Origin: a virus
IMG/VR virus record: IMGVR_UViG_3300028027_000289
Span: 1 to 20,600 of that record
Direction: 5' to 3' (one strand)
Length of the DNA: 20,600 nucleotides
Shown: piece by piece, positions 1 to 3,287 of the stretch
Numbering within the stretch: position 1 is the stretch's first letter
How the letters are laid out: each line of letters starts with the position of its first letter
Program-made: the position numbers and the translations under genes
The notes under the pieces: generated by a model
Database searches by the model: none
The model's input: the letters and a program-made list of their open reading frames with translations, nothing else
What the model was told of the DNA's origin: nothing

Positions 1-108
1 ATAGGACAAATCGGACATTAAAAATAGTGTGTATCATACATATTAAAAATATATTAACATTTTCTCAAATTTCAAAACAGGGGCGGGAAATAAATATTTC
101 CTGGATCC

Positions 109-138
109 TTGACTTACGAAAATCCTAAATGCTATACT
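109..138 (+). promoter_or_regulatory. sigma70-type promoter, TTGACT-18-TATACT
   Basis: A -35 box TTGACT (109-114) and a -10 box TATACT (133-138) are separated by 18 bp. The -10 is preceded by TGC, which gives an extended -10. Predicted transcription start is near 145. It is one of the two best promoters in the window. The first well-supported downstream gene starts about 300 bp away, which suggests a structured RNA or long leader in between. Confidence 0.7.
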
Positions 139-144
139 GTAAAC

Positions 145-294
145 CTTGGACAGTTTCAGGAGATAATATCAAGGGGTTAAACTCCAAGTGCGATGATGAC
201 GGAAGTTGTATTCTACAATTACTTTCAGATAATAGCAACAGCTCGAACCGATGAATGGCGGATTTATACTCTGATCATTTCGGGGTTCTCTTTT
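145..294 (+). ncRNA. candidate structured small RNA or leader
   Basis: This stretch lies between a strong promoter and a terminator-like hairpin and holds no convincing gene. Visible helices are CTTGGA (145-150) with TCCAAG (183-188), and TTGTA-TTC-TACAA (206-218, extendable by a G-T and an A-T pair). A longer bulged hairpin (about 245-288: GAA/TTC, CCGA/TCGG, TGA/TCA) is followed by TCTTTT (289-294), which resembles an intrinsic terminator. Two tiny open frames cross it (129-254, 41 codons; 193-351, 52 codons), but neither has a well-placed ribosome binding site. It matches no RNA family I recognise. The bases before 109 are AT-rich and show nothing further. Confidence 0.35.
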
Positions 295-409
295 AGAAAT
301 CATAAAAGGGGTATAGGGGTTGTATGCTCAAATTCTGGAAGTTATCATTAAAAAGATAAAAACAAATATAGAAGCTATACTTCTAAAAAAATATTTTACT
401 AACATTTAG

Positions 410-1597: not shown

Positions 1598-1622
1598 TAG
1601 GGTAAAGTCCCTAATCTTTTTT
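1598..1622 (+). terminator. weak intrinsic terminator
   Basis: TAGGG (1598-1602) pairs with CCCTA (1609-1613) around a six-base loop, and T6 (1617-1622) follows after ATC. It sits just after the micro-protein chain. The stem is only five pairs, so termination may be partial. The next 85 bases are rich in GGG/CCC runs with alternative pairings, e.g. GTATC/GATAC at 1646-1658 and CGCCC (1627-1631) with GGGCG (1696-1700). Confidence 0.45.
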
Positions 1623-1682
1623 CTCCCGCCCTTTTAAGGGTTCAAGTATCGGAGATACCAAATATGACCCGTTAGGGCTGGA

Positions 1683-1699
1683 AAACCCCCGTAGAGGGC
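1683..1699 (-). terminator. possible weak terminator of the 43-aa minus gene
   Basis: Read on the minus strand, CCCT and GGGG can pair around a short loop and are followed by four T, just after the stop codon at 1709. The stem is short, so this is a weak call. Confidence 0.25.
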
Positions 1700-1708
1700 G
1701 TATGAGGG

Positions 1709-1840
1709 CTATTTTTTAAAGATGCTCCAGATCTTAAACTTGATCTTTTGAATAATATTATCTATTTTCTGCTCGACGCTAATATCCTTCTTATTAAAAC
1801 TCTTAGGACTATTCCATAAATTAGAAAAATGTCTAGGCAT
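1709..1840 (-). CDS. small basic protein (43 aa), leaderless start
   Basis: A 43-codon frame begins MPRHFSNLWN and continues with a Lys/Ile-rich amphipathic helix (KIDNIIQKIKFKIW), giving a strongly basic product. TATAAT (1852-1847, minus) is exactly six bases before the ATG, the same leaderless layout as the starts at 618 and 1030 on the other strand. That match is the best argument that the gene is real. No ribosome binding site. A role in binding nucleic acid or membranes would fit the charge but is not shown. Confidence 0.5.
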   Translation of the reverse strand: MPRHFSNLWNSPKSFNKKDISVEQKIDNIIQKIKFKIWSIFKK

Positions 1841-1935: not shown

Positions 1936-1970
1936 GAAAAAATCCCAATCAGAGGCGGATCCGACTGGGA
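1936..1970 (-). terminator. intrinsic terminator of the endolysin operon and sRNA
   Basis: On the minus strand TCCCA (1970-1966) plus TC pairs with GA plus TGGGA (1947-1943) across one mismatch, with a GC-rich apical part, and T-rich sequence follows directly (1942-1936). It is about 100 bases beyond the last gene of the minus-strand operon. Confidence 0.7.
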
Positions 1971-2026
1971 CTTTCTAGTGTATTGCTACACATTATATAG
2001 GGAGACATTGCTGCCGTCACCTACAC
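1936..2026 (-). ncRNA. candidate ~90-nt small RNA
   Basis: A promoter with a near-consensus -35 (TTGACA, 2061-2056) and -10 (TACAAT, 2038-2033), spaced 17 bp, lies right after the last operon gene and points at the intrinsic terminator about 60 bases further on. The predicted transcript (start near 2026, end near 1936) has no start codon leading to a useful frame. It can form TAGG-GAC/GTC-CCTA, then GTGTA-GCAA-TACAC (a perfect 5-bp stem with a GNRA-type tetraloop), then the terminator hairpin. That compact three-hairpin layout is typical of phage or bacterial small RNAs. It is not a tRNA: no acceptor or T-arm fits. Confidence 0.5.
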
Positions 2027-2032
2027 ATCTTA

Positions 2033-2061
2033 ATTGTAATATGGAATATTTTATATGTCAA
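2033..2061 (-). promoter_or_regulatory. promoter TTGACA-17-TACAAT (minus)
   Basis: A perfect -35 hexamer (2061-2056) and a one-mismatch -10 (2038-2033) at ideal spacing, in the intergenic space downstream of the gene ending at 2067. It can only serve a short transcript, because a terminator follows about 90 bases after the predicted start. Confidence 0.6.
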
Positions 2062-2650: not shown

Positions 2651-3202
2651 CTACTTTTTCTGATCAATCGGGAATTGCAATAGCCATTCCTTAGCTTTTG
2701 GGGTCATACCCTTCCAAGCCGACCAATCTATACCGCCATTGGTCATATAATACGTTATCTCTGCGTTTGTTACTGGGTCGAATAACTCTCTGTTACTCTC
2801 TAGTTTGAATTTCTCAAGTCTTTCAGGACCAAGATTTCCAATCATGTTTATCTGGAATATTCCGTAAGAACTATCTCCAGTACTTCTGTCCCCGTTATAT
2901 GCAAGCGGTCTTCCATTAGATTCTCGCTTTGCTATGGACCAGGCTTTCTTAAGGCCTACTCCTTCGAATCCTACAGTCTTGAGTAGTAATACTAGCTCTT
3001 CGTCTGTAAGCATCTCAGATGGCTTGTAAATTGCTTTACTAAACTTATCCAAGACTTCTTGCTTTAGTTGGGCTTCAGTTTTCACTAAAGGTTTTACTAC
3101 TAAGGCTTGTGTAGGCTGGACTGGAAACATAAATAATGTTATCATTACTATTGTAACCAGATTATGAGCCAAATCACTAACCTGTTGTTTTATTTTCTCC
3201 AT
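2651..3202 (-). CDS. secreted lysozyme/transglycosylase-like endolysin
   Basis: A 183-aa product with a lysozyme-fold (SLT/GH23-like) catalytic domain. A signal-peptide or signal-anchor helix (13-27, ending PVQPTQA) precedes a charged linker (40-60). The catalytic part spans about 68-175: A-K-R-E-S-N-G carries the likely general-acid Glu (E94), S-Y-G-I-F-Q-I-N (112-119) is the usual substrate-cleft block, and N-A-E-I-T-Y-Y (146-152) with W-S-A-W-K-G is the C-terminal helix of the fold. It would cut peptidoglycan after export. The start chosen is the ATG eight bases after AGGAGG (3216-3211); a TTG frame start at 3274 lies within the promoter and is excluded. First gene of a four-gene operon. 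A virion-associated lysin is the alternative. Confidence 0.8.
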   Translation of the reverse strand: MEKIKQQVSDLAHNLVTIVMITLFMFPVQPTQALVVKPLVKTEAQLKQEVLDKFSKAIYKPSEMLTDEELVLLLKTVGFEGVGLKKAWSIAKRESNGRPLAYNGDRSTGDSSYGIFQINMIGNLGPERLEKFKLESNRELFDPVTNAEITYYMTNGGIDWSAWKGMTPKAKEWLLQFPIDQKK

Positions 3203-3235
3203 TGGCATTTCCTCCTCTAGAGATAACGAACTACA

Positions 3236-3265
3236 ATCATAACATTGATAGGATAAGCCTGTCAA
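3236..3265 (-). promoter_or_regulatory. strong promoter TTGACA-18-TATGAT (minus)
   Basis: The -35 TTGACA (3265-3260) and -10 TATGAT (3241-3236) are 18 bp apart, with TGT before the -10 (extended). A second TTGAC lies 9 bp upstream as a direct repeat. The transcript would start near 3229 and carry AGGAGG before the endolysin ATG. It overlaps the region driving the divergent glycosyltransferase gene. Confidence 0.8.
3246..3254 (+). promoter_or_regulatory. possible extended -10 for the glycosyltransferase
   Basis: TGA-TAGGAT fits an extended -10 and would give a leader of about 27 bases. It lies on top of the divergent endolysin promoter, so the two could exclude each other. TAGAAA (3276-3281), six bases before the ATG, is an alternative leaderless arrangement. 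Confidence 0.35.
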
Positions 3266-3287
3266 GCCAGTCAACTAGAAAGAAAAC

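Follow-up and report, generated by a model that had tools for sequence, protein, structure and literature searches.

A covarying small RNA gene conserved behind the endolysin operon of large environmental phages that probably infect actinobacteria

OOP-type RNAs of phages have their own promoter and terminator, and the actinobacterial 6C RNA, which we take to be Rfam family RF01066, is a short RNA in which two loops each have six or more C in a row. In the actinobacterial phylum, base pairing of the C-rich loops of 6C/B11 with G tracts of 5' UTRs is documented (PMC10470900) and, according to the same article, which cites Mai 2019, this pairing with G-rich mRNA sites is chaperone-independent. 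Phage-encoded trans-acting sRNAs and lambda OOP-type RNAs represent small phage non-coding RNAs (review PMC12197685), and extrachromosomal mycobacterial prophages are described as having RNA-based replication systems (PMC7157519).

The phage RNA analyzed here shares with 6C/B11 its short length, a gene of its own, C-rich loops and, likely, the host phylum. However, 6C/B11 is bacterial whereas our RNA is phage-borne, with UCCGCC and GCAA loops in the studied sequence in place of the two C runs of 6C and a different architecture around the bulge of its first hairpin; a cmscan search yielded no match to 6C at E-values up to 5. Similarly to phage trans-acting sRNAs and OOP-type RNAs, it is small, phage-encoded and non-coding, but OOP lies antisense to a gene that it overlaps, whereas this RNA overlaps none and is a covarying core feature of its entire family. 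Like the RNAs of the mycobacterial prophages (PMC7157519), it is a non-coding RNA of (probable) actinophages; those, however, are replication RNAs and come from prophages, whereas we noted no second convergent RNA at the studied locus, and our records do not represent prophages of any known host.

We analyzed a 20,600-nt stretch (20.6 kb, hereafter the window; G+C content, 38%) that comprises positions 1-20,600 of the IMG/VR virus record IMGVR_UViG_3300028027_000289. The endolysin operon on its minus strand consists of the genes endolysin, orfC, orfB and orfA, in this order (Table 1). A preliminary description of this DNA had proposed that a near-perfect promoter, TTGACA-17-TACAAT, follows the last operon gene and would give an RNA of about 90 nt with three hairpins, in a region that no gene explains, and these sequence features were all borne out. 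TTGACA starts 5 nt past the orfA stop codon (TAG, 2069-2067, minus strand) and is separated by 17 bp from TACAAT (2061-2033, minus strand), the two hexamers agreeing with the consensus at 11 of 12 positions; judging by its sequence, the promoter is of the sigma-70 type. The RNA, with a start predicted near 2026 on the minus strand, folds over 2026-1936 into three hairpins with a minimum free energy of -39.2 kcal/mol, compared to -19.8 +/- 3.45 kcal/mol for shuffled sequences (z -5.6). It would be transcribed by the host RNA polymerase and presumably be stabilized by its hairpins. The promoter by itself is not decisive because 33 promoter-like sites occur in 6 kb against 22.4 expected; we consider the observation settled because the RNA is conserved and its stems covary.

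Table 1. Positions in the window of the promoter, the predicted RNA with its structural elements, and adjacent genes
Feature	Position	Strand	Remarks
-35 element TTGACA	2056..2061	minus	TTGAC with a 17-bp spacer in 37/38 representatives
-10 element TACAAT	2033..2038	minus	TAYAAT/TATACT-like in almost every relative
Small RNA gene, predicted transcript of 91 nt (about 90)	1936..2026	minus	Fold z -5.6; covariance model
Hairpin P1	1995..2026	minus	Covarying variable outer stem, GG-U bulge-GA...UC-CC core, GCAA loop
Hairpin P2, GUGUA-GCAA-UACAC	1978..1991	minus	Covariation at each of the four modelled pairs; pairing in 99.1% of cells
P3, intrinsic terminator	1937..1976	minus	T-tract 1942-1937; fold and covariation
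Terminator hexaloop UCCGCC	1954..1959	minus	Closed by A-U; invariant in every member seen, the divergent L067-L070 among them
orfA, 76 aa	2067..2297	minus	Last gene of the endolysin operon, syntenic neighbor of the RNA; no Pfam match
Endolysin (SLT_3 lysozyme-like)	2651..3274	minus	First gene of the operon

Relatives of this locus were gathered in two independent ways, through the endolysin protein (80 loci) and through RNA sequence patterns, for which the counts given are minima. The promoter, hairpins and terminator recur in more than 100 IMG/VR phage contigs. In the first 35 distinct homologues, the two promoter hexamers hardly vary and the RNA differs very little beyond paired changes; the spacer and the DNA past the terminator drift. 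Because the RNA patterns themselves include CTCCC or GGATCCGCCTC, invariance was assessed on the endolysin-sampled loci, which were collected independently of the RNA. The exact 11-mer GGATCCGCCTC is present in 62 of the 69 such loci with enough flank, L027 carries a one-base variant, and the divergent loci L067-L070 were recovered by the covariance model, bringing the total with the RNA to 67 of 69. Relatives that had been classed as carrying the terminator only were found to possess the promoter, P1 and the terminator, sometimes without P2, and are thus further members. In one lineage (L061-L066 and L370, the latter around 8448), P1, P2 and the terminator are retained and recognizable -35 and -10 elements are absent. 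Across 14 relatives, the RNA is on average 93% identical to that of the window, compared to 76% for third codon positions of orfA and 68% for the DNA downstream of the RNA. The members are 66 to about 100 nt long, with the length differences located in loops. No start codon or open reading frame is common to the family, and several members contain no frame longer than two codons.

The covariance model (R1) was derived from an alignment of 29 diverse members (A1) that includes the window sequence; the window RNA, itself one of these model-building members, scores 77.7 bits (E 6.5e-18). RNAalifold predicted 23 pairs for the 29 members, 14 of them with compensatory changes. When the inner pairs of P1 were added, 90.5% of the 777 cells were paired, whereas shuffles reached 80.4% and sliding the partner strand out of register lowered the share to 36.6-45.1%; 88 double-change cells, spread over 16 pairs, were counted where shuffles gave 28.4. 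Alignment is poorer for the inner pairs of P1 because three or more types of inner P1 exist in the family; several of these pairs are unpaired in half of the rows, and our case does not lean on them. G-U cells (97) outnumber A-C cells (22), which points to selection acting on the minus-strand RNA. The changes affect all three stems and include, in the GNRA stem singled out by the preliminary description for such a check, the replacement of G-C by A-U together with that of GCAA by GUAA. Thus, neither unconserved stems nor a shared coding frame, either of which would have spoken against the proposal, was found in the homologues, and a small RNA that has its own promoter and ends in the shared terminator is strongly supported. 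These patterns show a conserved RNA of two to three hairpins that is under selection as RNA.

The GNRA-type tetraloop on a perfect 5-bp stem that had been noted from the sequence is P2; P1 is also capped by GCAA (2011-2008, minus strand). P2 is optional, being missing in compact members of 66-80 nt, and its cap is often GNRA and sometimes UUCG. The loop of P1 is C-rich in some relatives and GNRA in the window. Three elements are constant in the family: the promoter, the P1 core (GG/CC-bulge-GA/UC) and the hexaloop UCCGCC. The terminator pairs next to the hexaloop have changed from G-C to A-U in L067-L070, the hexaloop itself being unaltered there, and in L069 a G-C pair of the P1 core is replaced by A-U through a paired change. 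Given the constancy of the core and the hexaloop and the optional P2, P1 and the terminator appear to be the functional core, with the hexaloop as the likeliest contact site. No second copy of the P3 terminator was found within the window. In L021 (4455-4515), an extra copy of the RNA's terminator, without promoter or P1, lies directly 3' of a coding frame and was apparently spread by recombination.

The position of the RNA after the endolysin operon is a case of conserved synteny: endolysin, orfC and orfA lie upstream of the RNA on the same strand in 92 of the 92 contexts with enough flank. The RNA lies 0.5-4.3 kb from endolysin, with further inserted genes in between, and this spread argues that co-transcription is probably not essential. 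The preliminary description had suggested control of lysis timing or of host genes. We rejected the former given these varying distances and inserted genes and the absence of conserved complementarity to the endolysin operon or to other phage mRNAs; regulation of host genes is possible. GGCGGA occurs upstream in 24 of 36 loci, but at shifting positions.

Each of the 22 phage contigs searched with model R1 (51-114 kb) yielded a single locus; weak second matches correspond to the same palindrome read on the other strand. In one 114-kb contig (G002, which contains L145), the RNA is present at both ends with equal scores, probably due to terminal redundancy (or a circularized assembly). WhiB, an actinophage marker (PMC10202952), is encoded in 9 of the 22 long contigs, so the RNA-carrying phages probably infect actinobacteria; we infer that they are freshwater phages with hosts among 'Ca. 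Nanopelagicales'. Among isolates, the best relatives of the glycosyltransferase and the ribonucleotide reductase of these phages come from Streptomyces phages, Stanwilliamsviridae among them, where the gene order is the same. The RNA was not found in five isolate phage records, Stanwilliamsviridae isolates included, and a 19.8-bit match in Sham was rejected as a terminator that follows a tRNA. In bacteria, the strict RNA pattern produced no matches and the loose pattern at least 120, none of those listed having the terminator tail, and the model produced none in 297 Actinomycetes genomes, a search without a positive control in bacteria; thus, neither approach yielded a credible bacterial copy. 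A scan of 4227 Rfam families gave no match at or above the gathering cut-off for the RNA, only tRNAs in the neighboring DNA. In some relatives, tRNA genes are located closely downstream of the RNA on the opposite strand (e.g., L106, 4656-4804; L339, 8631-10865). We found no description of this RNA family in the open-access literature searched, which does not in itself prove novelty. The family is real and apparently undescribed, and is not in Rfam.

Two further conserved non-coding blocks were identified in the window. The first (100-400, plus strand) consists of about 300 nt downstream of a promoter-like TTGACT-18-TATACT (109-138), is about 83-99% identical in many relatives, and contains block-wise swapped, apparently compensating segments; its single-sequence fold is not unusual (z -0.56). 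It is probably a second, longer phage RNA. The other (1617-1713, plus strand), with the layout CTCCCGCCC..AAGGG..TATCGGAGATACCAAATATGACCCG..GGAAAACCCCC..GAGGG in dozens of relatives, lies between plus-strand small genes and the minus-strand RNA; its fold is not unusual either (z -0.43), and it is perhaps pseudoknotted.

We consider it likely that the RNA is the product of a stand-alone phage gene, one per genome, that acts in trans in some manner. Regarding the mechanism, a regulator that pairs through its loops is our tentative first choice, by analogy with the C-rich loops of 6C/B11. The P3 terminator doubles as the 3' hairpin of the RNA. Under this model, its invariant C-rich hexaloop UCCGCC, often along with a second C-rich loop on P1, would be displayed for pairing, and could engage G-rich sites in host or phage RNA without a chaperone, in the manner of 6C. 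Searches for targets yielded no common phage target of the hexaloop: its non-self complements are coding, many of them encoding Gly-Gly-Ser, and are no more frequent elsewhere in the phages than those of a reversed-pattern control. Blocking of Shine-Dalgarno sequences was rejected, as GGCGGA shows no clear enrichment at start sites in phages (17 against 8.6 expected) or in the genomes of the likely hosts (1 against 1.2), taken to be rhodopsin-bearing Actinomycetes of 1.2-1.5 Mb. The codon pair GGC-GGA, which is complementary to the hexaloop, is the most over-represented one in 583 phage ORFs of the fetched loci (244 against 84.5 expected), and the excess is weaker in the likely hosts (83 against 53). 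The hosts favor GGN-GGA, and GGA-GGN is avoided in phages and likely hosts alike, probably to avoid internal Shine-Dalgarno-like GGAGG; because the hosts show like preferences, much of the phage excess may be codon-pair bias, and we treat it as no more than a lead. Pairing with the conserved block at 100-400, which contains GGCGGAT at 257, was also rejected, as L087 and L133, among others, have lost this site.

Two further features count against pairing: the P1 loop of the window is GNRA rather than C-rich, and the conserved P1 bulge is equally consistent with recognition by a protein. It is indeed possible, if somewhat doubtful, that the RNA binds a protein or the ribosome as a decoy or in assembly, with the pyrimidine bulge of P1 and the terminator hexaloop as recognition sites. 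The conservation in shape and sequence of the bulged core (GG-UY-GAG/CUC-CC) and the hexaloop, next to covarying outer stems, and the lack of a conserved pairing target are compatible with such binding, but no relative among the protein-binding RNAs of Rfam scored above threshold. We find it improbable that the sequence is only a cis element, that is, a conserved 3' terminator or stabilizer for the mRNA of the endolysin operon, no separate RNA being made: although the RNA invariably follows this operon on the same strand, and one lineage has no recognizable promoter, the hexamers keep their 17-bp spacing in 37 of 38 representatives, inserted genes make the distance to the operon variable, and the elaborate conserved P1 and P2 exceed what a terminator needs. 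The succession of promoter, leader and terminator would also suit a leader or attenuator of a downstream minus-strand gene, and there are leader-like matches below threshold, but one of these, to His_leader, is far under its cut-off (21.1 against 49 bits), the downstream DNA is poorly conserved (68% identity between relatives), and the downstream genes in the window are on the strand opposite to the RNA, making this very improbable. A chance promoter and terminator without a functional RNA is hardly credible: promoter-like sites are common in this AT-rich DNA, but the covariation refutes chance, and the strand asymmetry, the conservation and the phylogenetic spread speak against it.

Well-supported, widespread and strongly covarying non-coding RNA families are uncommon in phages. 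The stand-alone RNA described here seems to belong to the core genes of large environmental actinophages, with one locus per long contig tested. More speculatively, and in our view rather unlikely, it could be a core regulator throughout a widely sampled group of large actinophages. This family, restricted to phages and marked by its invariant bulged helix and hexaloop, would then commandeer an RNA or protein of the host during infection in a mode as yet undescribed. The exact sequence, the structure and the invariant loop can now be tested, and the covariance model could annotate hundreds of metagenomic phages. If action in trans proves true, the RNA would be a conserved tool for controlling actinobacterial hosts, where known phage regulators are few.
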